Source: a virus. From it: a stretch of 35,063 nucleotides of DNA. The translations under genes were made by a program, and so were the position numbers. Positions within the stretch are counted from its first letter, which is position 1; every line of letters begins with the position of its first letter. This document shows, in pieces, positions 425 to 34,598 of the stretch. The notes beneath the pieces are model-generated. The model ran no database searches and was not told the DNA's origin. It saw only the letters and a program-made list of their open reading frames with translations. The DNA is taken from the IMG/VR virus record IMGVR_UViG_3300022540_000911, positions 1 through 35,063 of that record. One strand, 5' to 3'.

Positions 425-722
425 ATTTAATATCTTTGTTTGCATTAGCTTGATAAGTGTGTCCACATCTTTGACATTCTCTCCAAACAACTTTATATAC
501 TTTGTTATCCAATCCCGTGTAATCATTTGGTACTTGACTTGGAAATTGAATAACTGTTTCCATTCCACATATAGGACAACATGTGATGCTTGGTACCTTT
601 ACTTCTACCTTCTCCTTAACTATCTTATCCTTAGTAATTACTTTAGGGATTTCAATAACTTTAGGATCGGTAATAGCTTTAAACTCTTCAACTGTTGTTA
701 TCTCAATGTTTGCTTTAAACAT
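423..722 (-). CDS. Zinc-ribbon protein, unknown function
   Basis: 99 residues. The N-terminal half is rich in V, I, K and E (many EIPKV/VKEKVEVK-like strands). The C-terminal half carries two cysteine pairs, CPIC (with a preceding Cys) and CQRC, spaced about 34 residues apart, as in a zinc ribbon. It is the last gene of the early operon. A strong ribosome site (AGGAAGGAGG) precedes the ATG at 722, and the stop of the preceding 49-residue gene abuts that site. I do not recognise a family; DNA or RNA binding is only suggested by the zinc ribbon. Confidence 0.7.
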   Translation of the reverse strand: MFKANIEITTVEEFKAITDPKVIEIPKVITKDKIVKEKVEVKVPSITCCPICGMETVIQFPSQVPNDYTGLDNKVYKVVWRECQRCGHTYQANANKDIK

Positions 723-736
723 AGTGTTCCTCCTTC

Positions 737-886
737 CTATTCAGCGTTTAATGTTACTTGAAATCCATTGCTAAATTGTATAACAATGGTGTTGTTATGG
801 TCATATTGTGTGATGTCATCTACCACTACACCTGATCCTTTGAGTAAATCAATATCAACTACTCCTTCTAACTCTTTATATTCCAT
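737..886 (-). CDS. Small acidic protein, 49 residues, unknown
   Basis: A short gene filling what would otherwise be a 180-bp gap. It starts at ATG 886 behind AGGAAGGAG and ends with TAG at 739-737, inside the ribosome site of the next gene. The product begins MEYKELEGVVDID and ends FQVTLNAE, with mostly beta-type alternating residues and net negative charge. No family recognised. Support comes from the ribosome site, operon spacing and an open frame that fills the gap. Confidence 0.65.
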   Translation of the reverse strand: MEYKELEGVVDIDLLKGSGVVVDDITQYDHNNTIVIQFSNGFQVTLNAE

Positions 887-901
887 TATGTTTACTCCTT
901 C

Positions 902-1444
902 CTATTTACAATCATACCAACAATGGAATGTGTAATGTTTACCTTTTTTTTCTGTATCTTTCCTATAATAAAGTTCATCGTTTTCTTCTATTTCAATGGA
1001 TGCATACCATTCTTTAACATCCACATCAATTGCTTTTTCAAAAGAGTAAAATTCTACCCAATCAATTAATAGTAACTTCATTAACTCTTCTTCATCAAAT
1101 CCACTAGATGGGTCTATTGGGTCCAATTGTTTAAATAGTTCATCAAATACATCTCTTTCAATTGCAAACCATTCGCCATCCTCACCTAAGCCAATTAAAT
1201 CATTCTTAATAACATCTCTAAGCATAATCTTTTCTTTGATCAGATTAAACACATCTTGAGCGTAATGCTCATCTTTATTACAAATATAATAATCACTTTC
1301 TTTATAACCTTTGATTTTTTTTCTTTCAGATAGCAACATAATGGATTTTGATAATTCATCATACTCTTTGTTATCGAATAATTCATTAAGATGCTCTACT
1401 TTAAGGATAATGTGAGTATTATTCTTTAATTCAAATTTTTTCAT
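902..1444 (-). CDS. Hypothetical acidic protein, 180 residues
   Basis: No family recognised. The protein is rich in D, E and K, with no membrane segment, and its C-terminus ends in HCWYDCK. The start codon at 1444 overlaps the stop of the DUF5131 gene upstream (ATGA) and has AAGGAGGG before it, so the two are translationally coupled. DUF5131 genes can have a dedicated partner (TcmP), but this protein is smaller and does not resemble what I know of TcmP. Confidence 0.75.
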   Translation of the reverse strand: MKKFELKNNTHIILKVEHLNELFDNKEYDELSKSIMLLSERKKIKGYKESDYYICNKDEHYAQDVFNLIKEKIMLRDVIKNDLIGLGEDGEWFAIERDVFDELFKQLDPIDPSSGFDEEELMKLLLIDWVEFYSFEKAIDVDVKEWYASIEIEENDELYYRKDTEKKGKHYTFHCWYDCK

Positions 1445-2181
1445 TGATTTCCCTCCTTTGGAAATTCTAGGTATTTTATACCTTTTAACTCCTGGACCTT
1501 TTGTCCATCTATGTATTGTTGTTTAAAGAAGAATGGGATGTTTCTAGTTCTCGCTTCTTCTAATAAGCTTAATGCCCAACTCTCTTGAAAGCTTCTTCTT
1601 TTGTTTCCTGTTTCAGCTCCTACAATAACCCATGACACATCTATCAAATCAAATAGGTCCTTAGTTACCATTCCTTCTAGTAGTGGCTCAAATGATATAA
1701 ACAATGGTATATCATAAGCTTTGTATTGTGTATAAACCTTTACCATATCACTAATGTTGCATATGCTAACACCAAACATTATATTACCTGGTAATGAGTC
1801 TTTCATTGTTAGTAATATCTTAGATAACCGATCATATCTCTTTGTGAGGATCATGAATGTATGCATTGGATATTCATTGCAAATTCTAAATATCTTGCTA
1901 ATAAAGTTGATCGGAACTAATTGATGAAATAAGTCGCTCATACTACATAAGAAGATTCTTTGAGGTTTCTTTAGTGATTCAAGCTTATCGATTAGAATAT
2001 CAACATTAGCTGTTATATCACCAAAATCCTTCATTTCTCCATATAGACCTTTACCGATCCCTTTCAATCTAGGAAACATAACATTTCCAGCATAACAATT
2101 CTTGCATCCATCAGATATAGGATGACATCCCACTAATGGATTTATAGTTCTATCAGCCCATTCAATCTTTGTCTTAGGCAT
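1441..2181 (-). CDS. DUF5131 / phage Gp37-Gp68 family three-Cys protein
   Basis: 246 residues starting MPKTKIEWADRTINPLVGC. It has the family's three-cysteine cluster at C19, C26 and C29 (CX6CX2C), then the conserved blocks FMILTKR, GVSICN, SFEPLL, IVGAETG and the C-terminal FFFKQQ. The family resembles radical-SAM TIM-barrel enzymes and probably binds an Fe-S cluster; its reaction is not established. It is common in phages and mobile elements of low-GC bacteria. It sits in a cluster of small early genes with coupled starts. Family call is strong, biochemical role open. Confidence 0.85.
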   Translation of the reverse strand: MPKTKIEWADRTINPLVGCHPISDGCKNCYAGNVMFPRLKGIGKGLYGEMKDFGDITANVDILIDKLESLKKPQRIFLCSMSDLFHQLVPINFISKIFRICNEYPMHTFMILTKRYDRLSKILLTMKDSLPGNIMFGVSICNISDMVKVYTQYKAYDIPLFISFEPLLEGMVTKDLFDLIDVSWVIVGAETGNKRRSFQESWALSLLEEARTRNIPFFFKQQYIDGQKVQELKGIKYLEFPKEGNQ

Positions 2182-5041: not shown

Positions 5042-5201
5042 TAGCCGCTTCCTTTTCACCTTCACCTAAATGTGCAATTATTTGATCGGCTTCATCATTC
5101 GTGAATGGAGTTGCATATGCTTTACTTGATTCTACTAATACGCTCCAATTTTCTTCTCTAACATATTTACCATTGGAGCATTTTATAATAGTGTCTTTCA
5201 T
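5016..5201 (-). CDS. Hypothetical protein, 61 residues
   Basis: Begins MKDTIIKCSNGKYVREEN and ends in an acidic tail (GEGEKEAANEENHNNK). The ATG at 5201 overlaps the stop of the 45-residue gene upstream and has AAGGGGAG before it. The N-terminal motif resembles small phage proteins seen in replication clusters, but I cannot name it. Confidence 0.65.
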   Translation of the reverse strand: MKDTIIKCSNGKYVREENWSVLVESSKAYATPFTNDEADQIIAHLGEGEKEAANEENHNNK

Positions 5202-5795: not shown

Positions 5796-6584
5796 CTAAT
5801 CCTCCTCGAATATATTTGTTTGTTCTTTCATTTTTTTCGTTACTCCTGTGCCATTGAGAATTAATGTTGGAAATCTCGTTGCATAATCCTTAATAAATTT
5901 ATTTTCAATTTCATAGAGTAATTCTTTATTCTTAACAATAATTAATATCTCAAATTTGTAATCTTCTATTTTATCAATTGGAAATCTTGATGATTTTAAA
6001 TGTTGCGCCCACCTAAAGACTGGTAATGTATTTGTTTGACCTATATAAAATTCTCCTGTGGATTTTTTTGTAATCATATATATATATCCAGGACCATTAT
6101 AATATGAGCTTCTATCAATAAAATTGTGTGGGTTTATTCCATCATTTTCATCAAGAAGTTGTTGTGTTAATATCTTTAAATGATTGTTTTGGCATTTTCT
6201 TCCACAATAATCGTATCTGTTTTTATCTCTAATATCATAATGTTTAACATTTACAAATTTGTTTTCCCATTTTAGGAATTCTTCATAAATTATTTCCTTA
6301 CCACAATTAGCACATTTTGTTATAGTAGGTAGAGCATCTCTAAATCTTGATTCATCTTCTGTTTTCATAACCACCACACAATATAAATCTCCATCTACCA
6401 TTTTTTTAGATCGGGCAAATTTTATATTGGACCCATGTGTTTCTCTTATATGTTTTTTAAACAATTCATGAGAATCACTAATTATCGTTTGATAATCAAT
6501 TAAGGTTCTTGGTTTTGAATATCCAAATCCAGTTGGATCGGATTCACCACCTACTTCATATATTTTGTATTTATGAAATATCAT
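5796..6584 (-). CDS. GIY-YIG endonuclease with zinc-finger region
   Basis: 262 residues. An N-terminal region of unknown fold is followed by a CxxC...CxxxC metal site (C91, C94, C127, C131) and then a GIY-YIG nuclease domain: GYIYM at 166-170, YIG at 180-182, catalytic-type R191 and a downstream E in KDYATRFP-flanked helices. The architecture suggests a free-standing homing endonuclease or phage DNA-processing nuclease. The ATG at 6584 overlaps the upstream stop (ATGA), so it is well integrated into the replication cluster rather than a recent insertion. Confidence 0.8.
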   Translation of the reverse strand: MIFHKYKIYEVGGESDPTGFGYSKPRTLIDYQTIISDSHELFKKHIRETHGSNIKFARSKKMVDGDLYCVVVMKTEDESRFRDALPTITKCANCGKEIIYEEFLKWENKFVNVKHYDIRDKNRYDYCGRKCQNNHLKILTQQLLDENDGINPHNFIDRSSYYNGPGYIYMITKKSTGEFYIGQTNTLPVFRWAQHLKSSRFPIDKIEDYKFEILIIVKNKELLYEIENKFIKDYATRFPTLILNGTGVTKKMKEQTNIFEED

Positions 6585-7982: not shown

Positions 7983-8214
7983 TGGAAACACCTCTCAATT
8001 CCTTAAATATAATTTCTCTTACTTTTCTTTTTTCAGGATTGGTTAATAAATCATAATCCTTTCCAAAGAAGTTTGAACACATTATTTTCATATCATCATT
8101 AGATAATATCTTTTTGCCCAACCAATGAACTTTATGCTTGGACCCCTCAAGAGCTTCATATTGTGTTCCTTTAAGCCTTAATTCAATTACAAAATCTTTT
8201 TGATTATAGATCAT
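7975..8214 (-). CDS. Hypothetical protein, 79 residues
   Basis: Unrecognised helical protein (MIYNQKDFVIELRLKGTQYE...). It is coupled at both ends: its ATG overlaps the stop of the cytosine methyltransferase gene (ATGA), and its stop overlaps the initiator's start. It could be an accessory of either neighbour. Confidence 0.7.
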   Translation of the reverse strand: MIYNQKDFVIELRLKGTQYEALEGSKHKVHWLGKKILSNDDMKIMCSNFFGKDYDLLTNPEKRKVREIIFKELRGVSNG

Positions 8215-9431
8215 GATTTACCTCCTAGAAACATTACTTCAAATATTGCTTCAAGTGTGCCAATATGAATACTATTTCCAGCCACTTTATAAATGACTTT
8301 CTTTGGCATCATTGATGCTAAATCATCATAATTCTTTAAGCTAAATCCCATCCCAAGCATTGCTGATCTTGGACTACCGATCCATATCTTCTCGTTATGC
8401 TCAAATTTGAAATTATAATTACTAAAATTTCTTGTTGTAATGGTAGGGATTAATTTGCTATTTAATTGAAATACTTGTTTCATTTCTTCAAACTTGTATA
8501 AATCTAATACTTTATATAAACAATCTTTTCCTCTAATCTTAGCGTTTTCAAAATATTCATCAAAGTTTGTTTTATTAGTTTTTTCAAAATATCGATTACT
8601 GATCTTATTTGTTATATCTCTTTGGTCGCCATCCAACAACAATTGGGATGGTGTAATATCGAGTTTTCTTTTTCTAAGGTCATCTATTCTATAATCTTGT
8701 AAATACTCCTTTAAAACACTAATAATAAACACTCTATCTCTATTTTGACAAATACCATAATTACAAGCATTTTCTTTCAACATTAAATTTTCATATCCTA
8801 ATGTTTTCAATCTTCTTCTCATCTCTTTAAATCCTTGAATATGGGATGGATTTATAATAGCGGGAACATTTTCAAACAATAGAAATGTTGGTAGCTTATT
8901 TTGTTCTTTTAACTTATCAAATATATCCAATGTTTTAAAGGTTAAACCACCTTTGTGTCCATCAAATCCGGCTCCTTTTCCAGCAAGAGAAAAATCTTGA
9001 CAAGGTGTACTCCAGGAGATGAAATCAACCTTTGGAATATCATCTATATTTACCCCATAAACATTTCCAAAATTGGATGTGATTTGTTGAGCTAAATATA
9101 ATTGTTTAAGTACCTTCTTTGGTAGTTTTGAGATGTCATAAGGTTTTTCGCTCTTCCACCAATCATAAGGTGTTAAATAATCAAGCATTTCTTCTTGAGA
9201 AGGAAATTCATGATCCTTAAATTTTTCTTCTAGGTTGTAATGGATCAGTGCATAGGATATTGTAGCTTCAATATCAACTTCAACTAAGAATCTTGTTCCG
9301 ATCGGAATATTTTTATTCTTTAATGCTAAATGTTGTGCGCCTATTCCTCCATAGAATTCACCAATACTTAATAGTCCATTCCATTTAGGAAGATGGTCTT
9401 GATATTGTTCAAATATTGTTTGTTGTCGCAT
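8211..9431 (-). CDS. DNA cytosine-5 methyltransferase
   Basis: 406 residues from ATG 9431 (MRQQTIFEQYQDH), chosen because AAGGAGGG lies just upstream; the frame continues to 9488 but through the leader hairpin. The canonical m5C motifs are in order: motif I FYGGIG (26-31), motif IV TPCQDFS with catalytic C144, motif VI ENV (187-189), motif VIII QNRDR (229-233), a target-recognition region of about 110 residues and motif X GNSIHIGT. It methylates C5 of cytosine in an unknown target. No cognate restriction gene is nearby, so self-protection against host restriction is the likely job. It has its own promoter and structured leader. Confidence 0.93.
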   Translation of the reverse strand: MRQQTIFEQYQDHLPKWNGLLSIGEFYGGIGAQHLALKNKNIPIGTRFLVEVDIEATISYALIHYNLEEKFKDHEFPSQEEMLDYLTPYDWWKSEKPYDISKLPKKVLKQLYLAQQITSNFGNVYGVNIDDIPKVDFISWSTPCQDFSLAGKGAGFDGHKGGLTFKTLDIFDKLKEQNKLPTFLLFENVPAIINPSHIQGFKEMRRRLKTLGYENLMLKENACNYGICQNRDRVFIISVLKEYLQDYRIDDLRKRKLDITPSQLLLDGDQRDITNKISNRYFEKTNKTNFDEYFENAKIRGKDCLYKVLDLYKFEEMKQVFQLNSKLIPTITTRNFSNYNFKFEHNEKIWIGSPRSAMLGMGFSLKNYDDLASMMPKKVIYKVAGNSIHIGTLEAIFEVMFLGGKS

Positions 9432-9436
9432 TTTTG

Positions 9437-9546
9437 CCCTCCTTGTATATAAAAATCGGTGATTGATTAGAGAATAGAAGTCGACCAAGACTATGATTCT
9501 ATGCTCTAATCAATCACCGATGGATTGATATATTTGTGTCTTGGTC
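9437..9546 (-). promoter_or_regulatory. Structured leader / putative attenuator of the methyltransferase gene
   Basis: The leader contains a perfect 18-bp inverted repeat (9455-9472 and 9504-9521) with a 31-nt loop, inside which a further ATAGAA/TTCTAT helix can form. On the minus strand the stem is followed by TTTTTATATA, like an intrinsic terminator, and only then by the AAGGAGGG ribosome site (9444-9437). The first nine predicted leader bases GACCAAGAC (9546-9538) are perfectly complementary to GTCTTGGTC in the loop (9491-9483), allowing a pseudoknot. A competing 7-bp helix (9529-9523 with 9515-9509) would break the terminator stem. The mechanism is inferred; the complementarities are seen directly. 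Confidence 0.7.
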
Positions 9547-13627: not shown

Positions 13628-13935
13628 TATTTTTTCCTATTCCTTTTCCTAGATTTTTTGGTCATATTTCTTTTATTTTTTTTATGCTGCTCTTTCTTAG
13701 TTCTTCGCTTAAATCCAGCTTGTCGAAGTTTCATTCTCATTCGTTGTTCAAGTTGATACTTCTCAAGTAATTCTTGAGCTTTTGCCTCCTGGATTTCTTT
13801 TTGAGTTGGGTTCTTAAGTAGAAGATCAGATTCACCAATATTTTTACCTTTCTCATCCAAGACTTCAACGCTTTTTTTTATAGCTTTTTCTTTGCCTGGT
13901 ATTCTACCCGATCCTACCACTACAATATTAGTCAT
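13627..13935 (-). CDS. Highly basic protein, 102 residues
   Basis: Begins MTNIVVVGSGRIPGKEK at ATG 13935, which follows AAGGAGG and overlaps the methyltransferase-like gene by 8 nt; a frame from 13962 adds only an arginine-rich stretch. The middle is helical (EIQEAKAQELLEKYQLEQR), and the last 35 residues are almost all K, R and N. Probably binds nucleic acid non-specifically; no family known. Confidence 0.68.
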   Translation of the reverse strand: MTNIVVVGSGRIPGKEKAIKKSVEVLDEKGKNIGESDLLLKNPTQKEIQEAKAQELLEKYQLEQRMRMKLRQAGFKRRTKKEQHKKNKRNMTKKSRKRNRKK

Positions 13936-14551
13936 TCTTCTCTTCCTCCTTTTGAAAGTCAAATAATTCTAATTGTTCTAGTTTAGGTAAATTAACATCT
14001 AATAGAGGAGTGTTTTTATAAATCAATTTTTCAAATATAAGCTTTTCTGGTAAAACTTTCCAACAAAAATACATACTTCCAAAATGATTACTTTTTTGTG
14101 CTATATGCATTGTATCTCTTGTATGGTACCCCACTCTATCATCATACACCAATAATTCTAATCCATTTACCTTAAACATTTTACCTCTAGTTATTCCTTG
14201 AAGTGTTGGTACTGGCAACAATAACATAAAAGGTTTCCCAATCTCATATAACTTAGCTATTATCTTATCTTTAATGCTAAATGGAGGATTACTAATGATA
14301 TAATCACACTCTACTTTTGTAAAGAAGAAGTTTTCATCATTGTCTAAATGAGTATAGACAACTTCATGTCCATTTTGAGATAGAACTTTTACAAATGCAC
14401 TCCACTCTTTATCAAATGGACACCATATCTTTGAGTTTGGTTTAAGATATTTCAATATAGGTTCTACAGCATAGTATGGAGTATATACTTCATCACTATC
14501 TTTAGTTGATTTGGAACCTAAATAACCAACATTTCCTACTTTATCATTCAT
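13928..14551 (-). CDS. DNA methyltransferase-like protein (NPPF motif)
   Basis: 207 residues. It carries motif IV NPPFSIKDK (about residues 88-96), the catalytic signature of N6-adenine/N4-cytosine DNA methyltransferases, preceded by a degenerate cofactor region (KIWCPFDKEWSAFVKVL) and VVYTHLDND, where acidic residues usually contact AdoMet. This short form resembles EcoRI-methylase-like phage proteins. The usual FxGxG motif I is not clear, so activity is uncertain. AGGAGG precedes ATG 14551. It sits between integrase and a basic protein. Confidence 0.72.
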   Translation of the reverse strand: MNDKVGNVGYLGSKSTKDSDEVYTPYYAVEPILKYLKPNSKIWCPFDKEWSAFVKVLSQNGHEVVYTHLDNDENFFFTKVECDYIISNPPFSIKDKIIAKLYEIGKPFMLLLPVPTLQGITRGKMFKVNGLELLVYDDRVGYHTRDTMHIAQKSNHFGSMYFCWKVLPEKLIFEKLIYKNTPLLDVNLPKLEQLELFDFQKEEEKND

Positions 14552-14560: not shown

Positions 14561-15184
14561 CTAGAAATCCATTTTGAACTTCCTTCTTTCTTCATCCACT
14601 TGAGATTGAACCATCCCTATATATACTAATGTTACTTGAGTATTTGAATGTTTAAACATTTTTTGTAGACCAACAATGTTATTTGTTTTCATATAATAAT
14701 GATACCCAAATGTTTTTCTCAAGCTATGAGTAGCTATTGGAAATTTCCATTTAAGGTCTTTTGAAACTCTCTTAATAATATTTGTTGCACCTTGTCTTGA
14801 AATTGGGCTGTTATAACCTTTTCTACTTTTGAATAAGTAAGCTTCATGATCCAGGTTAAACAAATCAATATATTCTTTTTTCATTTTATCAATAACATCT
14901 TGATTCAAAGTTATTTGTTGAATCTTTCCAGTTTTCTTTTCTCGAAGCTGGATGAATCCATTTTGAATTGAGCCTACCTTAATTTGAGTTAAATCACTGA
15001 TCCTTAATCCAATGTTGATTCCTAGATATATGAGGAAATAATTTCTAACAGCTAGTTGCTTCTGTTTTTTGTGTGTTTCAATATCAAATGATTCTATCTT
15101 TCTTTTCAGATATGTGAAACAATCCTCAAGGTCTTTCTTATCTCGAATAGGTTGGACTACATTTCTTCCAAAATCGTTAGCCAT
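14561..15184 (-). CDS. int: Tyrosine recombinase / integrase
   Basis: 207 residues, mostly the catalytic domain. The active-site set is visible: R61 (GLRISDL), a beta-hairpin lysine at 84 or 87 (EKKTGK), H153-x-x-R156 (HSLRKTFG), H179 (KHSN) and nucleophile Y188 (LVYIGM). It lacks the long N-terminal arm-binding domain of lambda-type integrases, so it is closer to compact Xer-like enzymes. It catalyses site-specific integration/excision or dimer resolution. It is immediately downstream of the XRE regulator in the leftward operon. No attP core could be identified from this sequence alone. Confidence 0.9.
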   Translation of the reverse strand: MANDFGRNVVQPIRDKKDLEDCFTYLKRKIESFDIETHKKQKQLAVRNYFLIYLGINIGLRISDLTQIKVGSIQNGFIQLREKKTGKIQQITLNQDVIDKMKKEYIDLFNLDHEAYLFKSRKGYNSPISRQGATNIIKRVSKDLKWKFPIATHSLRKTFGYHYYMKTNNIVGLQKMFKHSNTQVTLVYIGMVQSQVDEERRKFKMDF

Positions 15185-15195: not shown

Positions 15196-15414
15196 CTAAT
15201 CGTTCGCAAAAAAGTCAGCCACAACATCTAAGTTTGTGCCGATCGCTTTTGCAATTTTTTGACCCATTGAAACTCTAGGTTCTTGTTGCCTTTGTTCATA
15301 TTTGGCATATTGTTGTTTATTGATTCCAAGTTCATCCGCTACTTGTTGTTGAGTTTTTTTAGCAGCGACTCTTAAAGATTTAAGCAATGCTGAATTTGTA
15401 GTTACCAAGAACAT
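15196..15414 (-). CDS. XRE-family HTH repressor/Cro-like regulator
   Basis: 72 residues, essentially one helix-turn-helix domain: LKSLRVAAKKTQQQVADELG, then INKQQYAKYEQRQ and EPRVSMGQKIAKAIG. It lacks a peptidase or oligomerisation domain, so it is Cro-like or a minimal repressor. The ATG at 15414 is only two bases from AAAGGAGG; a TTG two codons later has better spacing. It is the first gene of the leftward unit and faces the divergent control region with repeated palindromes, its likely operators. Confidence 0.85.
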   Translation of the reverse strand: MFLVTTNSALLKSLRVAAKKTQQQVADELGINKQQYAKYEQRQQEPRVSMGQKIAKAIGTNLDVVADFFAND

Positions 15415-15432: not shown

Positions 15433-15462
15433 ATTCTACACTACAGATCGGACCCATGTCAA
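15433..15462 (-). promoter_or_regulatory. Leftward early promoter
   Basis: Minus-strand -35 TTGACA (15462-15457), 18-bp spacer, -10 TAGAAT (15438-15433); predicted start near 15426. The operator palindrome ACTTTTAAGT abuts the -35 from upstream. One copy of the abundant hexamer CCGATC lies inside the spacer. It should drive the regulator, integrase and the rest of the early operon. Confidence 0.7.
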
Positions 15463-16596: not shown

Positions 16597-16608
16597 TTAT
16601 TACATCCC

Positions 16609-19265: not shown

Positions 19266-19302
19266 CTTTGGCTATTCCTTCCTTAATTATTTTTATTTCT
19301 AT

Positions 19303-19318
19303 ACATCGTTATCGATGT
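19303..19318. other. Small hairpin between baseplate and membrane genes
   Basis: ACATCG/CGATGT, a perfect 6-bp stem with a 4-nt loop in the 67-nt gap after the baseplate gene. No T run follows on either strand, so it is not an evident terminator; it may be an mRNA processing or stability element. Confidence 0.35.
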
Positions 19319-19332
19319 TTGCAGCTTCTAAT

Positions 19333-20511
19333 TTAAGGTACAACTATATGACCTTCTGCTATAACTTCAAATGAAGTTAAACCTAATAAATCATCTTGAA
19401 TTACAATTTCTAAATTTTCTCCTGGAGCCAATCTAATTGCTACTCCAATTTTATTTTGTCCTGCAAATGTTAATCTACCTACAAATCCATTTTGACCTTG
19501 ATTTGGATTTGAAACTGTAGTTAAAACAAAATCAAACATTAAGTTTGCTAAGTCTGCATTGCTCTTTGCATTAAAAATATTTTGAGTAGTTCCATCTACT
19601 CTTCTTAATACAATACCATATGTTAGTTTTGGTAAATCTCCAAAATCAGCTAGACTTGGTGCGCTTGCAGTAAGCGCCGTTAATATAATTCTAGTAACAT
19701 CAAATGATGTTGGTATATTAACTACTTCATCCCTAAGGTTGAATGTTTTTGTAATTGAACTCCCATCAACATTCATGTTAGTTATATTTGCAGTAATCAC
19801 ACTTCCAGAAGGATATGCAAAATCAAATGGTGTATCTAATGTGATTGTTGTTCCTGATACGCCAACTACTGTAGCTAATCCAAATCTATTAGATGTAGCA
19901 TCAATAATAATAAAATATGTTCCAATGGCAAATCCTGTTGCATTAGCCACTACAATGGTGTGGTCATCTATTGCTACTACACCAACAGATGTTGTTCTAT
20001 TTGTTTCCATTTTGAATTTTGAAATAATAGCTGGTGATACCTGATCTTGCACATTAACATCTAATGCTACCGAACTAATAATATTTACATCCATATCCTG
20101 GACCTCCTCTTCTAAAGCTACAACTCTTTGTTCTAAATCAAATATAAAATCATCTCTAAGTATTACATCCACTGTTCCAGCTTCTGCCTGGTTTCTAATA
20201 ACAACATTGTGGCTTGGAATATATTTGATTTTATTTAATCCATCATATACAAATGGAGTGATAATTAATTCACCGGCAATTGTTGATGGATAAGTTAAAT
20301 CTAATATAACAGTATCATCAAGACCTAAATCATATCTTAAGCTTGTTCCATCCTTTGCGACTAAATCAACCCACTTATTAACACCTAGCTGTTCGGTATT
20401 AGTAAAGTCAATTGTCATTCGTGATGCATTGTTTTCATTATTTATATGTAGATCGGAAGATTCTATTGAAGCTCGACCAGTATCATAACAAATAATATTA
20501 ATCGATTTCAT
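19333..20511 (-). CDS. Baseplate/fibre protein, BppU-like N-terminus
   Basis: 392 residues. The N-terminal 120 residues read as an immunoglobulin-like baseplate attachment domain of the BppU type: NNASRMTIDFTNTEQLG, then WVDLVAKDGTS and VVIRNQAEAGTVDVILRDDF. A short coiled coil (LEQRVVALEEEVQDMD) marks a trimerisation stalk, followed by beta-rich sequence with VVAIDDHTIVVANATGF-type strands and a C-terminal domain ending FEVIAEGHIVVP. It would sit at the tail tip and contribute to host binding. The last tail gene of the late operon. Confidence 0.72.
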   Translation of the reverse strand: MKSINIICYDTGRASIESSDLHINNENNASRMTIDFTNTEQLGVNKWVDLVAKDGTSLRYDLGLDDTVILDLTYPSTIAGELIITPFVYDGLNKIKYIPSHNVVIRNQAEAGTVDVILRDDFIFDLEQRVVALEEEVQDMDVNIISSVALDVNVQDQVSPAIISKFKMETNRTTSVGVVAIDDHTIVVANATGFAIGTYFIIIDATSNRFGLATVVGVSGTTITLDTPFDFAYPSGSVITANITNMNVDGSSITKTFNLRDEVVNIPTSFDVTRIILTALTASAPSLADFGDLPKLTYGIVLRRVDGTTQNIFNAKSNADLANLMFDFVLTTVSNPNQGQNGFVGRLTFAGQNKIGVAIRLAPGENLEIVIQDDLLGLTSFEVIAEGHIVVP

Positions 20512-20512
20512 A

Positions 20513-21826
20513 TTAATTCCCTCCTTTTACAAGTTCAGTGAAGAGAGTTTTTTTGAATCCTAACTTCACATTATATCCTTTATTAGTCCATTCAATTTCA
20601 GATACAGGAACTACTTTTGATGTTCCTTCACTATCGAATATGGTTACTAATTCATACAATGAAAGTGTTCTAATATCAATTGGTCCAATGTTTGTTTCAT
20701 TTAAAATAATATATTCAACATACCTTGCATTAATTAATTCAGATATTGCTAGATATTGTGATGCACTAAAGTATTCCTCATTAAATATTTTGGAAACTGT
20801 TGGTTCTATTCTTTGAGCTGCTGGGATGCTATCAATATAAACTTGGTTATCTTTTCCTAAGTAATAGTTAATTCTAACTGTTTCTATTACTCCAGTAAAC
20901 CCCCAATTTATTACATTTTGCATATAGAATGTTCTTAATAAAGTATCTTCATATGCTGTTCCATCCCATAGTTGTACTTTGAAAACATAATCAAAGTTCC
21001 AATCTTCTGTTGAATCATCAAAGTTTGATGGTTTCCAAGTTTCGGGTAACAAGACACCTTCAACATCAATAATTTCTTGTAACGCTCCAGGTGTTGCATT
21101 GTATAGTTCTTCCGATGAGTAAATAAAGGTATGATTAGTAAATGTTTCTTGAGTTCTCAATACCGCTATAGTGTTGTTGATTTTCACTTCCGTTGTTGTT
21201 TTATCGAATGTGAAATCATCAAGTTTAATTTCTTCGGTTTCGGTACTTGCAATGATTGATATTTTAACAGTTGGAACACTCGATATTAATCCTAGATACT
21301 CCATTTCAATATAATAATTATAATGAGCTAAGTATATCTTAAGATATTTCCAAGCATTAACAATGTTGGATGTTCCAGCATAATTTCCTACAAATGATGT
21401 GTCTTGAGTGTTGGCTGGTATCACATTGATGAAATCAATATTACCATTATACTGGGTTTCAACTTCCCCGATCACTCTTGTAAATACATTTTCTAAACTC
21501 ATATACTCTTCATCAAGTTCAATTTCATAAGTAGTTAATTGTGTATAATCCATTATGATTTGTGTGTCAAATACTTTTCTAAAATCATCACCTCTAAATG
21601 TTACAAGTCCATTGTCTTGAGTAATGTTTTTCATAAATCCAGAATATTGATAATGTCCAATGTCATTTTTAAAAACAAAGATTAATCCATCAGATATATC
21701 ATCATGTGTAACACCTTTAAAAGTGCTTGTATCAAAATCAAAAACTCTTCTAATGATGCTCCATTCTTCTATTTCAATGTTTGAAAGATGTACTCCATCT
21801 TTATCATATACTTCAACAAAATACAT
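20513..21826 (-). CDS. Tail-associated protein (Tal / Gp37-like)
   Basis: 437 residues from ATG 21826 (MYFVEVYDKDGVHLSNIEIEEWSIIRR), which fits the usual N-terminus of Tal-type siphovirus tail-tip proteins and has AGAAGGAG 8 nt upstream. The rest matches the prophage tail endopeptidase/Gp37-like fold: repeated beta blocks and alpha regions, ending EWTNKGYNVKLGF. No peptidase domain is seen, which agrees with a host lacking peptidoglycan. It forms the hub below Dit. An in-frame extension upstream encodes a hydrophobic segment (separate entry). Confidence 0.75.
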   Translation of the reverse strand: MYFVEVYDKDGVHLSNIEIEEWSIIRRVFDFDTSTFKGVTHDDISDGLIFVFKNDIGHYQYSGFMKNITQDNGLVTFRGDDFRKVFDTQIIMDYTQLTTYEIELDEEYMSLENVFTRVIGEVETQYNGNIDFINVIPANTQDTSFVGNYAGTSNIVNAWKYLKIYLAHYNYYIEMEYLGLISSVPTVKISIIASTETEEIKLDDFTFDKTTTEVKINNTIAVLRTQETFTNHTFIYSSEELYNATPGALQEIIDVEGVLLPETWKPSNFDDSTEDWNFDYVFKVQLWDGTAYEDTLLRTFYMQNVINWGFTGVIETVRINYYLGKDNQVYIDSIPAAQRIEPTVSKIFNEEYFSASQYLAISELINARYVEYIILNETNIGPIDIRTLSLYELVTIFDSEGTSKVVPVSEIEWTNKGYNVKLGFKKTLFTELVKGGN

Positions 21827-21925
21827 ATCATCAACTCCTTCTATTTCCGGTCTTGATTCTACCAATAATATTGTGCATAAAACCATGATCATTAGTGATG
21901 TTATTACTAATATTTTTTTCCACAT
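21827..21925 (-). other. In-frame N-terminal extension with hydrophobic segment
   Basis: ATG 21925 lies one base after the Dit gene stop and opens 33 codons in frame with the Tal gene: MWKKILVITSLMIMVLCTIL followed by LVESRPEIEGVDD. Two lysines then an 18-residue hydrophobic stretch look like a signal or membrane anchor. Upstream GGGTGG is a modest ribosome site. If used, a membrane-anchored isoform of the tail protein would be made. Confidence 0.45.
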
Positions 21926-21926
21926 A

Positions 21927-24842
21927 TTAATCAACCACCCATTCTTTCCAAGTTGTTTTTCCAGCCGTTGCTCCATTAATAGTGATTCTATGATTTCCTT
22001 CTGGAATACTAAAGAATGTTTCATCACTTTTATCTACATAATCATAAGCATTAGAACCATCAGCAAATTTTATAGTTTTCTTTTCACTATCAATAATGTA
22101 AGTTAGTGGATAGCTTTGTCCTGATCCTGTGAAATCCATGTTAATTTCTTGATCGGTTGTTAATGTATCAAGATTTTCTAATTCAATTAACATAGTAGCA
22201 CTATTTGTTGTAAACTCCATTATAGGAAGGATCGGTAATGGATAATTGTTAGTTATATTAACTTCATCACTCGCTATTACTTCATTATATAAGTAAAATG
22301 GTGTTAATCTCTTCCACGTGAATTTACTAATGATTAAGCTCGATGTTTCTTTTTCAGTTTTTGGAGCTGCTAATAATCTTACATCTGTAAATCTTGACCC
22401 TTGACCCCAATCGTATTCAATAATGTTTTCATCATCTGCGATGAATTGCATTAATAAGTTATAACCATCATATGCATTATAATTGATTCCAAAGTTGATT
22501 TTAAATTGCATATTTTCAAAGTCTAATTCTTGTCCATATACTAAATCTCCAACACTTAGCAATTTTGTTCTTGTTCCAAACCCTATTGGCTCTGTAATCA
22601 AGAATACTTCTGGTTCTACAATTACATTTTCTATTAGATAAAATGTTGATGCCATAGTGTCTAATTGTGATTGCGTAATTCTTTCATCAAATATGTTTAT
22701 ATCAAGTAAAACAACTTGACTTAAATAAAAATCTTTGCCTGTTGCTTCGACTAAATCAAGATAGTTTGCTCTAAATCTTAATTGTGAATCATCATCAATT
22801 TCATCTAAAGATGACAAAATATAATCTCCTATTGCAATTGGTTCAACTAAAGAATCAAATAATTCAGAACCATTTGTATATAGTCTAAATAAATTCATAA
22901 CACTATCTACTATCCCTACTTTTGCTCTTGTAAAATAATTATGTGCGTGTTCTAAAACAATATCGGTTAGTTGGATATATGTGTAAAAGGCATCGCTTGT
23001 TCCAGCGCTTTCCACTTTCAATTTTCCATCTTCTCCAAGTGTTATAGATGCATGTGATGTTAAGAAATTGACAAAATCAACACTAATCTGGTTGAATTTT
23101 TCAAATATATCACTATAAGTTAATTCTGTTTTTTCTAAATTTCTTCTTGCTAAATACATTTCCACCCAAATATCCATTTGTAATTGTGTTGGTTCAACTG
23201 CAAATAATGACATATTAACTATAATAAAATTTTTAGCTTCCCATTCGTTGCCGCTTAATTCATTATCAAATCCTATTCTAAAACTACCAGGAAAATCAAC
23301 TGTATGACTAAATATGATACTTAATTTTTGCCATAACCCATTCCCAGTATAGTCAATTATTCCAAGACTTCCTGAATGATTTATAGCATTAATATTGTTA
23401 GCTGTAGATTTCAAATCAATAGCATAATAATAGTTAATGTTAGCTAATAAATTAAATACATATCCAATATAAGATGTGTTTATTCCATCATTTTCAAAAT
23501 GCTGAATTCCATTAGAAACACCTAAATTAATACAATTAATATTAACATAGTTATCAGCAAGAGAATCTCCATCTTTATCTTCGAAAAATGGATTTGATGC
23601 ACCATTATTATGTTCAAATATATCTCTTAAGGTTAATCCTTCATAAACAACTTCATCTATTGATTTATTTGTATAGGCTATATCTAATTTTGAAGTTCCC
23701 GATCCTTTATAATAAGTTTTACCATTTTCTTGATAATCATATTTGATTTTTTTATATAGAGCAATAATATAATCCATTATTTCTTTTGTCATATACTCAT
23801 CAAAGATTTTTAGATTGAACACATATACATTATCCATTCTTAAATTTGTTCCTTCTGCCAATGCTGCGCTAGAATAATTATGTCTTAAATAAAGACTGGC
23901 ATCAGCGTGAACTATTTCTGTTTCTAAAATACCACTTAAATTGTACCAAGTGTCCATTGTTGGTAATGGAACGATTTCAAATTGGTGGTCTACCGATCCA
24001 TCATAATATAAAAGCCATAAGGATTCCAAAACATTATTATCAACTTTAAAATCGGCATTTGCATACATTTTAGAATATTCATGTATTAAATCATCTTGTG
24101 CTGAGTAACCAAATGTTGCCGAAGCATCAATTATAGAATTGTTTAATTCTTTATCAATTATAGAGTTTACATTAGTTCCTTTAGCTCTCCAATCGCTCAA
24201 ATCTGAATTATCAAAATTTCCATTTATTACTAAGTTTTCTACTACAAACTCTCTTAAAGTATATGTTTCTTTTGTGATACCATATCTCAATTTATAAGTT
24301 TCTATCCACATATTATATTGTGTTTTTGAAGGAGAATTAACGGGTAAAAATGTTTCTTTCTCACTAATAAACTCAACTGTATTTGCTTGTAAGAATGTTT
24401 CTAAATCTGAACTTGTGTTTCCACCTAAACGAGATTGTAGTATTTTAAGTCTAAATTGACCTGTAGTTTTATTTATTACGATGCTTTCCTCATCTAAAGT
24501 GAATTGATTAGGTGTTCCATCTTCGGTATATACAGGAAATTCAATATTTCCAATTCTCAAATATACATTAGCTGTTTTGGTTCCATCGGTTACTATTTTA
24601 TATCCAAGTATAGATTGTAATTCCTTCGAAAATCTATATGTGATTGTATCAGTTTGTGATAAAGTCCACCCCGTAGCAAACTTAACAACATCGTTATAAT
24701 CTCTTAAAAATATATCACGATAAGTATATTGTGTACCATCACTATCAATATAAGCTACTTCATCAATGGTTTTATTTGTATAAATAATTGTATCTAGTCC
24801 TATTTTTTCATAATCTTTATTTAATATATCAATTTTTCTCAT
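21927..24842 (-). CDS. Large distal tail (Dit-like) protein with repeated insertion modules
   Basis: 971 residues. The last 225 (GTRTKLLSVGDLVYGQELDF to the C-terminus) resemble the N-terminal ring domain of siphovirus Dit proteins. Ahead of it are three similar beta-sandwich modules of about 160-200 residues, ending near 342-365, 542-567 and 711-737 with a shared pattern (IFDEYMTKEIMDYI, VEPTQLQMDIWVEMY, IFDERITQSQLDTM) and linked by TYTLREF/TLRDIF/TYSDIF motifs. LVINGNFDNSDLSDW is typical of carbohydrate-binding (CBM4/9-like) modules. Likely function is tail-tip ring plus receptor binding. AGGAGG precedes ATG 24842. Confidence 0.7.
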   Translation of the reverse strand: MRKIDILNKDYEKIGLDTIIYTNKTIDEVAYIDSDGTQYTYRDIFLRDYNDVVKFATGWTLSQTDTITYRFSKELQSILGYKIVTDGTKTANVYLRIGNIEFPVYTEDGTPNQFTLDEESIVINKTTGQFRLKILQSRLGGNTSSDLETFLQANTVEFISEKETFLPVNSPSKTQYNMWIETYKLRYGITKETYTLREFVVENLVINGNFDNSDLSDWRAKGTNVNSIIDKELNNSIIDASATFGYSAQDDLIHEYSKMYANADFKVDNNVLESLWLLYYDGSVDHQFEIVPLPTMDTWYNLSGILETEIVHADASLYLRHNYSSAALAEGTNLRMDNVYVFNLKIFDEYMTKEIMDYIIALYKKIKYDYQENGKTYYKGSGTSKLDIAYTNKSIDEVVYEGLTLRDIFEHNNGASNPFFEDKDGDSLADNYVNINCINLGVSNGIQHFENDGINTSYIGYVFNLLANINYYYAIDLKSTANNINAINHSGSLGIIDYTGNGLWQKLSIIFSHTVDFPGSFRIGFDNELSGNEWEAKNFIIVNMSLFAVEPTQLQMDIWVEMYLARRNLEKTELTYSDIFEKFNQISVDFVNFLTSHASITLGEDGKLKVESAGTSDAFYTYIQLTDIVLEHAHNYFTRAKVGIVDSVMNLFRLYTNGSELFDSLVEPIAIGDYILSSLDEIDDDSQLRFRANYLDLVEATGKDFYLSQVVLLDINIFDERITQSQLDTMASTFYLIENVIVEPEVFLITEPIGFGTRTKLLSVGDLVYGQELDFENMQFKINFGINYNAYDGYNLLMQFIADDENIIEYDWGQGSRFTDVRLLAAPKTEKETSSLIISKFTWKRLTPFYLYNEVIASDEVNITNNYPLPILPIMEFTTNSATMLIELENLDTLTTDQEINMDFTGSGQSYPLTYIIDSEKKTIKFADGSNAYDYVDKSDETFFSIPEGNHRITINGATAGKTTWKEWVVD

Positions 24843-27069: not shown

Positions 27070-27758
27070 CTACTTTCTAAGTATTTCAGAATTAGAAGCT
27101 TCTCTAATTGTAACTCCTTGTTCTGCCAATCTTTCTTTTTCAAGTTTTTTGAAATGAACTAATAATTCTTCAATATCATATTCAACCATTAATGCAAGTA
27201 GATCGGTGTAGTTCAATCTACACATTAAGGCATATGGAACTCCATGATGTTTACACCTTTTGATAAGCGTAAAAATAAAAGGCGTGTTAGTCATTTTCTT
27301 CGGTTTCGAACTACCCGAAACTTTATTACTTAATTTACGAAGGTAACTAACACGCTCTTCTAGTTTTTTGAAACAGTATTTCCTAACTGTTCTATTATTA
27401 GTATGATTTTACCTAATATTTGTTCGGCAATTTCATAATCAAATAGTTTTGCAAAAGCTTTAAATGTAGGTAATTGTTCACTATTAACATAACAATATAG
27501 TAATTTCATAGCTCCTACAAAATTAACTTTCTTATCTTTGTTTGGATTTTTACTCCACTTTTTAACCATAGTAGTATAAGTGTTCAAATCATATCCTACT
27601 GTTGATTCAAAATGTTCTTCCCATTTTAGATGGGCTTGAAATGATGTATCAATTTCAACTGTCATTTCACCTTCGTGGCGTATAACTTTTGCAACTTCAA
27701 CACCATCAATTGTTTCAAATGTAACTTCCTTTTTTAGAGTTGGTAATTTAGTAATCAT
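27070..27758 (-). CDS. Tail assembly chaperone GT fusion, made by -1 frameshift
   Basis: Slippage on A AAA AAC (27369-27363) just before the TAG of the shorter chaperone moves ribosomes to the -1 frame, which is open from CTA (27363) through KKLEERVSYLRKLSNK and MTNTPFIFTLIKRC to the stop at 27070. The fusion would have about 229 residues. The downstream frame is too short and lacks a ribosome site of its own, and the G-then-GT layout before the tape measure gene is conserved in siphoviruses (lambda G/GT). The fusion binds the tape measure protein and recruits the tail tube. Confidence 0.8.
27282..27369 (-). promoter_or_regulatory. -1 ribosomal frameshift signal
   Basis: Heptamer A AAA AAC at 27369-27363 in the required register, a 7-nt spacer, then a perfect 10-bp stem GCGTGTTAGT (27355-27346) with ACTAACACGC (27291-27282). 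The 54-nt loop contains a further hairpin GTTTCG/CGAAAC (27321-27316 with 27308-27303). The zero-frame stop TAG follows the heptamer directly. Confidence 0.85.
27360..27758 (-). CDS. Tail assembly chaperone G
   Basis: 132 residues, ending QLGNTVSKN at the frameshift site. Starts MITKLPTLKKEVTFETIDG after AAAAGGGGG. Between the major tail protein and the tape measure gene, as expected for the G protein, which coats the tape measure during assembly. Mixed beta N-terminus and helical C-terminus. Confidence 0.82.
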   Translation of the reverse strand: MITKLPTLKKEVTFETIDGVEVAKVIRHEGEMTVEIDTSFQAHLKWEEHFESTVGYDLNTYTTMVKKWSKNPNKDKKVNFVGAMKLLYCYVNSEQLPTFKAFAKLFDYEIAEQILGKIILIIEQLGNTVSKN

Positions 27759-31061: not shown

Positions 31062-31700
31062 TTATTTTTTATTTAGTTTTATTTTCATGATCATTCTTCT
31101 ATGTAAATCAGATTTTGTTCGCTTCTCTGCCTCTACAGTCTTTAAAACATCCTCTAATGCTTCTAAAGAACGAGCGAATACTTCTGTGTTTTCATAGGCT
31201 GGAATGTCAACTAAAGCCACATCATATAATCTTTTAATCTTTAATATAGTTCTTCTTGGCATATCGCCATCTAAACTTTCCCATTTACTTCCACCATCTT
31301 CGTAATCAATAGTAAATGCAAATGAACACTCACTTAATAATCCTTCTTGAACCATTTTAAATACATCTCTATTTGATTGTGTATCAATTAGATCGGCTTC
31401 AAATTTTAAACCTTTTGCATCTGGTATTAATCTTAAACTACCATTTTTTGTTGATGCAATTGCTAAATAACTTCCAGCATGATTATACTTTAATGGAACT
31501 TTTTTCATATCTGTTGAATCAAGGGCATGTATATCAATTGATTCTATATACCCATATTCTTCCGATCCAATCAATGTATCTTGATTGAAAATTAATGCAT
31601 AACCTTCCAAAACCATTTTATTATCTTCATCTTGCCTAATTTCTAGTCCTTGAATATAGCGAACTTCTTTATCATTCTTAATAGGTTTTTTAGTTTTCAT
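31062..31700 (-). CDS. Prohead maturation protease (HK97 family, U35)
   Basis: 212 residues. Catalytic-type His in PLKYNHAG (H74) and Ser in LLSECSFAF (S126), with the family's RDVFKMVQEG helix between. Cleaves the capsid delta domain during maturation. The start lies inside the end of the portal gene and follows AGGAGG. Its C-terminal 30 residues are basic. Confidence 0.9.
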   Translation of the reverse strand: MKTKKPIKNDKEVRYIQGLEIRQDEDNKMVLEGYALIFNQDTLIGSEEYGYIESIDIHALDSTDMKKVPLKYNHAGSYLAIASTKNGSLRLIPDAKGLKFEADLIDTQSNRDVFKMVQEGLLSECSFAFTIDYEDGGSKWESLDGDMPRRTILKIKRLYDVALVDIPAYENTEVFARSLEALEDVLKTVEAEKRTKSDLHRRMIMKIKLNKK

Positions 31701-32901
31701 TTGGTTTTCCTCCTTTATTATTTACTTTAGATAATTGATAAGCTAATGCTTTGTCTGATTCTATATAGTTTAATGAAACTAACCTTACATCCCCACCTTC
31801 AATTGGGTCCAGGTTAAACATTTTTCTATATTCATTTACTGTCATTAGTCCGAGTTCTCTTGATTTTTCTAAGATTGCTATTTTCGAGCTAATACTAATC
31901 ACTTGTAAATCACTACTTGATATGATGACTCGATTCCCCATATCATATTCTCTTACAGTAAATAATTTATCGGTTAATTCATTTTGAAGTTTATTATTAA
32001 TTGTTTCCATATTAGTTTCGTAATAGCTTTGCCATTGATTTTCTGAGAAATCAGCACTAATTATTGGTTCACTAATATTAAGATAATTCATGATCTTCTT
32101 CTCAAGAAGCTTCATCATTTCAGCATTTGCATATTCTGCTTTACTATTAACTTGAGTTAATTCAGCACTTGCATCTAAATATGCAACACCTGTTCCATCA
32201 TTCGCTAAATATGTTTTTGCAAAATCTTCTGATTTTGTTTGCTTTTGTTTATCTGTTAATAATGTAGTTGTATTAATAACAAATCTTAGGAATCCACTTG
32301 TTTTGATTGCAGCTTCAATCCCACTATAATTGGTATTAATAACACTTAGCACTTTGTTTATTGCTGAGTCTTTTTCACCAAATATTTCTGTATTACCAAC
32401 ATTTCTAGGTATATGAACTATATTATCAAGACTTGTTGTTATTTGTTCCCCTTGTAATTGGAATTGTAAGACAAAATCCATAGTTCCTTTGATATGACTA
32501 ACATTAATATTTGTTGGGTCCAATATCCACATGCTTCTTAGTGGTTGTTTTGGTTTGCTCAAATCCCAATCCAAATATATAAAGATGTTATTATCAATAA
32601 AATAGTTCCTACAAGCTTTTTCCCAAAATGAACCTGCTTCCATTATTGGATTAGGTTTCATTGATAGAATCTTAGTCATCCATGTTTTATCCTTTTTATC
32701 CTTTAAATACACCGTTGGCTTAATCTTGCTTAAATGCTTAGCGTGTGTATTTACCCCGATCATAAATGTATCGTTTAATTCAGGATTTACTGAATCAGAA
32801 AAATATGGTGTGAATAGATTCATTAACTTTGAGGTGCTTGTTTTTAAGTCTTTCTTATTGCTAAAAATACTTGTAAATATTCCTTTAAAACTCAATGCCA
32901 T
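31690..32901 (-). CDS. Portal protein, HK97-type
   Basis: 403 residues with portal signatures: FWEKACRNYFIDNNIFIYLD, then DLSKPKQPLRSMWILDP and NIVHIPRNVG, a crown region with QTKSEDFAKTYL and the helical stem after NYLNISEPIIS. Forms the dodecameric ring at one capsid vertex. AAGGAGG before ATG 32901. Confidence 0.9.
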   Translation of the reverse strand: MALSFKGIFTSIFSNKKDLKTSTSKLMNLFTPYFSDSVNPELNDTFMIGVNTHAKHLSKIKPTVYLKDKKDKTWMTKILSMKPNPIMEAGSFWEKACRNYFIDNNIFIYLDWDLSKPKQPLRSMWILDPTNINVSHIKGTMDFVLQFQLQGEQITTSLDNIVHIPRNVGNTEIFGEKDSAINKVLSVINTNYSGIEAAIKTSGFLRFVINTTTLLTDKQKQTKSEDFAKTYLANDGTGVAYLDASAELTQVNSKAEYANAEMMKLLEKKIMNYLNISEPIISADFSENQWQSYYETNMETINNKLQNELTDKLFTVREYDMGNRVIISSSDLQVISISSKIAILEKSRELGLMTVNEYRKMFNLDPIEGGDVRLVSLNYIESDKALAYQLSKVNNKGGKPNEN

Positions 32902-32912
32902 AATGCACCTCC

Positions 32913-34598
32913 TTAATCTTCTACAGTCATGAAGAATGTTCTATTTTTAATATATCCAACATAACAGTTTAATATCGTTGCTACTCCATCTATTTTTCTT
33001 TCATAACTTCCCTTTTTAGGAAGGTAATTCCCATTTCTATCTTTCTCTAATTCAACATTACTTAAACACCATTTTGTAACTGGATTGTTTTGATATGATA
33101 CTATATCTTGTTTCAAATTGGCTTCCATTTCTTGCATTGGGATGCTCAATGTTTTTGAGCCTTGATATGTTTTAATTAGAACATGTTCTTTTGAATATCC
33201 TATTGCCTCTAGGTCATTAATCAAATATCCAGCTGAATATGGGTCATAGTGTATATATTGGAATCTAAACTCATATTTTTCAACAATCTCCTGGACATAA
33301 GAAACAATATCATGATAATCAATTAATTCCGATCCACTTTCTCTAATATATCCATCTTTAACCCATTGAGTCATTGGAACCTTTGTTGTTCTTTTTACAT
33401 ATTTAGTTGTTGCCCAATACATAGTGTGATTCACTATTTTTTCATTTTTCTTATCGAATAACATTATATTAAAAGCTGTTAAATCTCCCGTTCTCGATAA
33501 ATCAAATCCACCGATCACTATATGACCTCTAAACTCTTCTAAGTCATAAATTTTATCATTATTGAAGTCATCATATGAAAGCCATGAATGTTTGCTATTT
33601 TGCCGAACATTAAATGATTTACATAATAGGTTTATAAGCTTTTGTTTGTTATCTTTAGCTTTCTCAACTTCTTCATAAAATTGATTGATTGATTGACTGA
33701 TCCCTAGATTGGGATTAGCTTTCCATGCGTTTTTAATATCTTTCCATTCTGATTCTTTATCTAATTCATAACAGAAAACCAATAATCTTGGGTCTTTCCA
33801 ATCTCCTTTAAGGACATTTGAATCTGAATCATATATCTCATCAAATGTTGATTGGCGTTCGGTACCCATAGTTGTTGTTATAAACTCGATTGGTTGTGAT
33901 CGGGATTTAGTTCCATCCCACAATACATCGATAATATTTGAATCTGTAATTGCATGTAACTCATCAATATGTGAGAAGTGAACATTTTTCCCATCCATCT
34001 TTTTTGATTCTTTTGATAATGGAAGGAATGATGTATCTCTAAAAGGTTTCAAATAAATTCCATTAATTGTAATATCGAACTTCCTGTTTAGTACTGGACT
34101 TTGTTTGATAATCAGCTTCACCATATCCCATGCGATTTTTGCCTGATCTCTTTTTGTAGCTCCAGTGTAACATTTGGCTCCTCGTTCACCACCAAGAAGC
34201 ATTTCATAAATAATTATACATCCTGCAAGTAATGTTTTTCCGTTTTTACGCGCAATGTATAAATGCAATCTTCTATGTTTTCTTAATCTCGATTTTATTC
34301 CAATGAATCCATACAATGATGAGATCATGGCTTTTTGCCACAATTCCAACTTGATCGGATGTCCAGCATATTCCGATCCTTCAACATGTTTGCAAAATGT
34401 TTCTATAAATGCAATTGGTCGATCGGCATATGTTTCATCATACTCAAAGAATTCTTTCGTTCCATCATAATGGGTTATATAGTTTTCTTCTGGATTCCTA
34501 ATGAGATAAACTAATTTCTCAATTTGTGTTAATATTTTTTTTCCGACTAAGATAGTGCCGTTGGTTATTTGTTCATAATATTCTTCTATATATGTCAT
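32913..34598 (-). CDS. terL: Terminase large subunit
   Basis: 561 residues. N-terminal ATPase: Walker A ARKNGKTLL (K121/T122), Walker B HIDELHA with D212/E213, and the coupling segment FITTTMG. The C-terminal RNase H-like nuclease begins at GGFDLSRTGD (D366) and ends with KIDGVA. The motor cuts concatemers and pumps DNA. Start shares one base with the TerS stop (TAATG). Confidence 0.95.
   Translation of the reverse strand: MTYIEEYYEQITNGTILVGKKILTQIEKLVYLIRNPEENYITHYDGTKEFFEYDETYADRPIAFIETFCKHVEGSEYAGHPIKLELWQKAMISSLYGFIGIKSRLRKHRRLHLYIARKNGKTLLAGCIIIYEMLLGGERGAKCYTGATKRDQAKIAWDMVKLIIKQSPVLNRKFDITINGIYLKPFRDTSFLPLSKESKKMDGKNVHFSHIDELHAITDSNIIDVLWDGTKSRSQPIEFITTTMGTERQSTFDEIYDSDSNVLKGDWKDPRLLVFCYELDKESEWKDIKNAWKANPNLGISQSINQFYEEVEKAKDNKQKLINLLCKSFNVRQNSKHSWLSYDDFNNDKIYDLEEFRGHIVIGGFDLSRTGDLTAFNIMLFDKKNEKIVNHTMYWATTKYVKRTTKVPMTQWVKDGYIRESGSELIDYHDIVSYVQEIVEKYEFRFQYIHYDPYSAGYLINDLEAIGYSKEHVLIKTYQGSKTLSIPMQEMEANLKQDIVSYQNNPVTKWCLSNVELEKDRNGNYLPKKGSYERKIDGVATILNCYVGYIKNRTFFMTVED

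Follow-up and report, generated by a model that had tools for sequence, protein, structure and literature searches.

CCGATC, a short nonpalindromic DNA word in strong excess throughout a siphophage genome

Results

A phage genome filled with one hexamer

The IMG/VR virus record IMGVR_UViG_3300022540_000911 is 35,063 bases long, with a GC content of 30%, and was analyzed over its whole length (hereafter, the window). Genes for a large terminase, portal, head protease, capsid, tape measure, replication initiator, and integrase mark it as a temperate siphophage. We were interested in a six-base word, CCGATC (GATCGG on the opposite strand), which occurs in strong excess from one end of the window to the other.

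There are 55 exact sites, 29 reading CCGATC and 26 reading GATCGG, a density of 1.57 per kb or about one site per 0.64 kb. Markov models predicted 4.5 (order 0), 3.0 (order 1), 4.8 (order 2), and 6.1 (order 3) sites, which corresponds to an enrichment of 12-fold at order 0, 18-fold at order 1, and ninefold at order 3. The order 4 expectation rises to 24.5 because nearly all CCGAT and CGATC pentamers fall within the word itself. Among all hexamers, the word ranked first by a wide margin (z about 28 at order 1), and the next enriched CpG hexamers (CGATCC, ACCGAT, and CGATCG) all overlap it, in a window in which CpG is depleted overall (0.46). A sequence-only reading of this DNA had reported 54 loci against about four expected, roughly 12-fold; the excess stands, with the count corrected to 55 and the enrichment to 12- to 18-fold. 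Its equal orientations were reproduced on recounting, and the excess survived both the third-order Markov model and the search for equally enriched CpG hexamers that the reading had proposed.

We also compared the genic sites with a null model of synonymous-codon shuffling (300 shuffles of 10,935 codons). Genes contain 50 sites versus 3.5 ± 1.9 expected (z of 23; 14-fold), and no other hexamer exceeded a z of 7.6, the top three of these again overlapping the word. The claim that the excess concerns the DNA rather than the protein holds up. Almost all one-letter variants are near or below expectation (CAGATC, 1; CGGATC, 0; TCGATC, 2; ACGATC, 1; CCTATC, 2), which confines the excess to this precise hexamer. 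Three variants are themselves in excess, namely CTGATC (23), which is the main exception, CCAATC (31), and CCGAAC (9, small numbers). CTGA/TCAG tetramers are strongly depleted in the window (111 vs. 251 expected) despite the excess of CTGATC.

These data confirm that the excess is real and strong. Nothing speaks for an origin as a by-product of biased codons, amino acids, or composition, or as part of some longer repeat scattered over the genome, and such an origin is hardly credible given the codon shuffling, the absence of flank conservation, the presence of the word on both strands, and the existence of relatives that have homologous proteins without the word.

Sites are dispersed, strand-balanced, and devoid of flanking conservation

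The sites (Table 1) cover all modules, early and late genes alike, at about eight per 5 kb and with a largest gap of 2.2 kb. Five of the 55 are intergenic, as fits a genome that is 92% coding, and the genic sites use every pairing of the three codon phases with the two orientations. The flanks are near background, with only a mild preference for C after the word, leaving six informative positions; flanks so poor in information show that the word does not belong to some longer repeat. Rare codons lie in frame at 26 of the 50 genic sites (TCG at 14, CCG at seven, and CGG at five), accounting for 14 of 38 TCG, seven of 14 CCG, and five of eight CGG codons in total. The statement that the word forces rare codons therefore holds for these 26 sites and fails for the other 24, which use ordinary codons. 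Amino acid identity at motif codons was slightly below average (0.497 vs. 0.537), a difference that was not significant (p = 0.14) and gives no support to selection so strong that it distorts proteins.

Orientation shows no polarity (26:29; best split p = 0.79) and no KOPS-like strand skew. The two orientations alternate beyond chance (37 runs vs. 28.4 expected, p = 0.012). Sites of one orientation also lie at more regular intervals than random placement would give (coefficients of variation of 0.66 and 0.70 vs. 0.95, p = 0.019 and 0.030; label permutation p = 0.027). Spacing of both orientations combined was not more even than random (p = 0.11), and the palindromic words described below for other phages showed no such per-strand regularity. 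We regard this pattern as a weak sign that sites are required on each strand separately.

Such dispersal, with a site about every 640 bases and the gaps bounded as above, might be expected of a regularly spaced binding site for a DNA-organizing, partition, packaging, or uptake protein of the phage or its host. The DNA uptake sequences of Neisseria and Pasteurellaceae, a competence feature of these hosts, are likewise strand-balanced and dispersed at about one per kb. However, they are 9–12 bases long, whereas CCGATC occurs in a phage and has six informative bases, which is short for an uptake sequence or a partition site; no 9–12 base consensus with conserved flanks was found. The word is also nonpalindromic, unlike typical dimer sites, it is equally frequent in early and late genes, and the different words of related phages argue against a packaging signal. 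We judge a binding site to be decidedly unlikely.

The excess is private to this phage among its relatives

The large terminase was used as a query to search for related phages, and the closest had terminases 59%–66% identical. The comparison with related phages suggested by the sequence-only reading gave a clear answer: The six closest, 48 kb together, have two copies of the word. Across 103 other phage contigs (each at least 9 kb, mostly relatives by terminase or capsid) there were 355 copies versus 464 expected, and 24 phage contigs of similar GC and CpG had one copy. The excess is thus private to this phage among the relatives compared. Where relatives have sequence homologous to a site of the window, they mostly differ from it at three to four of the six bases. 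Because they are nearly devoid of the word and usually this far from it, the sites most likely arose by substitution within this phage lineage.

Searches for the host and for closer relatives returned little. A terminase search of genome contigs recovered only a distant Streptococcus prophage, one of 398 Bacillota genomes reached at most 42% identity, and one in the order and class of G122, a compositionally similar genome (GC 0.32, CpG 0.48), found nothing closer than 40%. Methyltransferase searches gave one 31% match; IMG/VR scans with the methyltransferase, replication protein, and integrase found no relative, and a scan with the DUF5131 protein found two at about 31% identity. In G122, CCGATC occurs at 1.1 of expectation, and the sampled Bacillota genomes in which its density resembles that of the phage are GC-richer (0.45 or more).

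Other phages carry other iterated words

We screened the panel for hexamers in excess on each of the two strands taken alone. No phage is more extreme than the window, but several have words of their own. GGATCC occurs 17 times in L143 (0.9–1.5 expected). In the two halves of the L177 record, CTGCAG (40 observed/4.6 expected and 27/3.8) and TCCGGA (23/4.0 and 30/4.7) are both in excess; CTGCAG also stands out in L040, and TCCGGA in L156 and L158. The excess of these two words continues through the rest of their records. GAGCTC stands out in L192 and L197, the latter with an uneven record (two copies in one part vs. 13 in another). L173 has two nonpalindromic words, CCAGAA (16 and 17) and TACAGC (22 and 19), with near-random flanks as in the window. 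Overall, the iterated hexamers of related phages occur at about one to two per kb, are dispersed and strand-symmetric, and often have the shape of modification sites, as do GGATCC, CTGCAG, and TCCGGA.

L156 and L158 are prophages of a single isolate (2883940520) and have 12.7 kb in common at 97.6% identity. Their nonhomologous left arms are both TCCGGA-rich (seven vs. 2.5 expected and 12 vs. 3.1), which, with small numbers, suggests that the word comes from the host.

Another possible role for a short nonpalindromic word is that of Chi, with GATCGG the site of a host AddAB or RecBCD enzyme; the phage would have gathered such sites to shield its DNA and to draw on the recombination of the host. 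GATCGG ends in CGG, as do the Chi words AGCGG and GAAGCGG of Firmicutes, and the even spacing within each orientation is as if sites were needed per strand. Chi, GCTGGTGG, is over-represented in lambdoid phages that lack a recombinase, with a median of about 3 (PMC3784561), and no phage recombinase was recognized among the window's proteins. The likeness extends to a nonpalindromic, over-represented word within the 5–8 bases of Chi sites that ends in GG and whose excess in phages is tied to a missing recombinase. On the other hand, enrichment in the window is 12- to 18-fold and balanced, whereas known phage cases reach about one- to fourfold and are often polarized. The clearest examples in Firmicutes phages are AAGCGG (16:0 and 12:0) and AGCGG (46:4 and 55:8), with enrichments of about 1.1- to fourfold; the known Chi words of the Staphylococcus phages phi11 and 80alpha are all on one strand, and those of L050 and L055, in which AGCGG is the top word, are mostly so. 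The earlier dismissal of Chi- or KOPS-like sites by strand balance is therefore largely sound, with the reservation that some other loci with AGCGG or AAGCGG are strand-balanced, Chi identity in their hosts not being established. Several other panel phages have palindromic words, unlike Chi. A Chi site thus appears quite unlikely.

Two methyltransferases and a possible deamination footprint

The window encodes two candidate modifiers of CCGATC. One is a C5-cytosine DNA methyltransferase, which looks complete, with the usual C5 motifs present by inspection (FYGGIG, TPCQ, ENV, QNRDR, and GNS). Its nearest solved relative is 4dkj/8c56 (E = 2 × 10^−23), which we take to be M.MpeI. M.MpeI is CG-specific (PMC10899764), and CCGATC contains a CG; the variable (recognition) region aligns poorly with that of M.MpeI. 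The other is an adenine methyltransferase-like protein, in whose gene 81 bases (14348–14428) are 83% identical to Fusobacterium phage Fnu1 while the proteins are only 38% identical, possibly reflecting a conserved catalytic region or a recent exchange. Fusobacterium phages matched through this stretch had no CCGATC.

The CTGATC variant bears on modification. It occurs 23 times versus 14.8 (order 1) or 9.8 (order 2) expected, and 22 times in genes versus 10.3 by codon shuffling; in relatives it is deficient (19 vs. 51.6 expected, 0.37 of expectation). CCAATC is similarly high in the window and in relatives, and its excess is uninformative because they have it in common. No deamination trace was seen in the window at the first C (TCGATC) or the sixth position (CCGATT). 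The CTGATC excess hints that the second C, that of the CpG, may be 5-methylated and deaminating.

This footprint, the general depletion of CpG, and the C5 enzyme with its CG-specific relative would all fit a word targeted by the C5 methyltransferase that the phage encodes and enriched because methylation benefits the phage through self-marking, regulation, or a methylation-coupled repair bias on phage DNA only. Beyond the poorly aligned recognition region, two panel phages (L054 and L204) have a C5 enzyme but no such motif, and phages with iterated words are mostly without one. In most word-bearing contigs neither a C5 (PF00145) nor an N4/N6 (PF01555) methyltransferase was seen, so an enzyme of the phage's own is not a general cause; several of these contigs are fragments, which limits what such an absence can prove. 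We find this explanation unlikely.

Restriction sites are avoided in the same genome

The sequence-only reading had noted that phages usually avoid restriction targets, and this is true here of many other motifs. RGATCY (33–43 expected), CCNNGG (26), GTSAC (25), and GAGAC (29) are absent from the window, as are 14 of the 38 six-base palindromes expected three or more times. RGATCY is missing from several relatives as well; CCNNGG, GTSAC, and GAGAC occur in them. The phage has evidently been shaped by many restriction systems, to judge from these absences, and CCGATC is the single word running strongly opposite to avoidance. A parallel is CCGG in Helicobacter pylori, an over-represented restriction site with a Kr of about 1.4–1.5 (PMC4687349): It too is a modification-type site in unexplained excess rather than avoided, although the excess in the window is 12- to 18-fold.

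Genome organization

The HNH gene and the small terminase gene lie at opposite ends of the record, whereas in the relative L001 the HNH gene is directly upstream of the large terminase; the record is therefore probably a near-complete, circularly permuted genome. A temperate lifestyle is probable from the tyrosine integrase. Among the proteins searched from 15629–24842, neither an endolysin nor a holin was recognized, a possible hint of an unusual host envelope or of uncharacterized lysis genes.

Table 1. Coordinates of CCGATC/GATCGG sites and of selected genes in the window
Feature	Position	Strand	Remarks
CCGATC, + strand starts (29)	1828, 2054, 4056, 5425, 8377, 9298, 10816, 11095, 12062, 12289, 12568, 13908, 15239, 18011, 18803, 21468, 23699, 23993, 25709, 25786, 26207, 27034, 28227, 29458, 31562, 32756, 33329, 33511, 34373		
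GATCGG, + strand starts (26)	665, 1909, 2574, 3034, 3444, 5084, 6409, 6536, 7436, 9300, 11978, 12540, 13540, 15446, 17648, 18078, 20451, 22151, 22230, 25521, 27201, 28754, 31391, 33898, 34353, 34421		
CCGATC site	665..670	−	First site; intergenic
CCGATC site	5084..5089	−	Intergenic
CCGATC site	15239..15244	+	Intergenic
CCGATC site	15446..15451	−	Intergenic
CCGATC site	27201..27206	−	Intergenic
CCGATC site	34421..34426	−	Last site; within terminase gene
Palindromic double site CCGATCGG	9298..9305		Single occurrence; within C5 methyltransferase gene
HNH gene	10–333		One end of record
DUF5131 protein	1441–2181		Distantly similar to radical SAM mobile pair protein
GIY-YIG homing-type endonuclease	5796–6584		Near helicase-loader-like gene and replication initiator
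C5-cytosine DNA methyltransferase	8211..9488	−	PF00145, E = 9e-37; candidate modifier of CCGATC
Adenine methyltransferase-like protein	13928..14551	−	NPPF motif; phrog_799, E = 2e-32; second candidate modifier
Tyrosine integrase	14561..15184	−	PF00589, E = 8e-21
Large terminase	32913..34598	−	phrog_9, E = 3e-133
Small terminase	34598–35053		End opposite to HNH gene

Discussion

The closest known counterparts of CCGATC are the highly iterated palindromes (HIPs) of cyanobacteria, HIP1 (GCGATCGC) and the alternates GGCGCC, RCCGGY, and GCSGC, which occur at about 0.5–2.5 per kb (PMC4390886). HIPs accompany matching methyltransferases, and Elhai proposed methylation-directed mismatch repair as their creator (PMC4390886). 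Like them, CCGATC is one short GC-rich word, enriched at least about 10-fold and dispersed in single copies at a density within their range, and both it and HIP1 contain GATC and CGATC. The likeness to HIP1 in density and core that the sequence-only reading had drawn thus holds up. The setting differs: a phage of 30% GC, its host probably one of the Firmicutes and its two methyltransferases no more than candidate cognate enzymes.

We tentatively prefer the reading that the host imposes CCGATC as a HIP-like iterated word linked to modification. The word would accumulate by point substitution genome-wide, up to about one site per 0.64 kb, driven by a host process. This could be a modification enzyme that acts together with repair or with strand discrimination, or else selection that favors modified sites directly, and the word would mark the phage with the identity of its host. 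The reading builds on a genome-wide, strand-symmetric excess of one exact hexamer, on its privacy to this phage among relatives, on the recurrence of the pattern with other words in other phages, and on the TCCGGA common to two prophages of one isolate, nonhomologous arms included. It further supposes that CCGATC is methylated, that the host chromosome is also rich in it, and that what drives the excess is repair or selection at the modified site. Several points weigh against it. Methylation of CCGATC is not readable from sequence, and CTGATC, instead of arising by deamination, could be an alternative version of the word that is also accepted. HIP words are palindromic, whereas CCGATC is not, and its palindromic form occurs just once in the window. 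A phage-encoded enzyme is no general requirement, and the host enzyme is only presumed. Finally, the host was not found, CCGATC reaching at most about 2.5 times expectation in the about 50 genomes sampled from the 398 of Bacillota.

A broader version, which we think somewhat unlikely, is that temperate phages of several hosts carry private "password" hexamers (CCGATC, TACAGC, GGATCC, CTGCAG, and TCCGGA) written by a host modification-linked repair or self-recognition system. If so, the hexamer would identify the host in which a phage has long lived, and the nonpalindromic words would represent a novel type of iterated sequence, with modification of one strand and a separate regular spacing on each.

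How iterated words such as HIP1 arise and persist is not settled, and work on this question has centered on the chromosomes of cyanobacteria. A 35-kb phage with a clean nonpalindromic case, beside relatives without the word or with other words, makes this question testable because candidate enzymes are few and genomes are small. The avoided sites of the window could serve to infer the restriction systems of the host, and an iterated word may act as a barcode linking phages to hosts. Together with the excess of CCGATC, the different repeated words of some related phages suggest a process or selection, possibly host-driven, by which one chosen short word comes to fill a phage genome.

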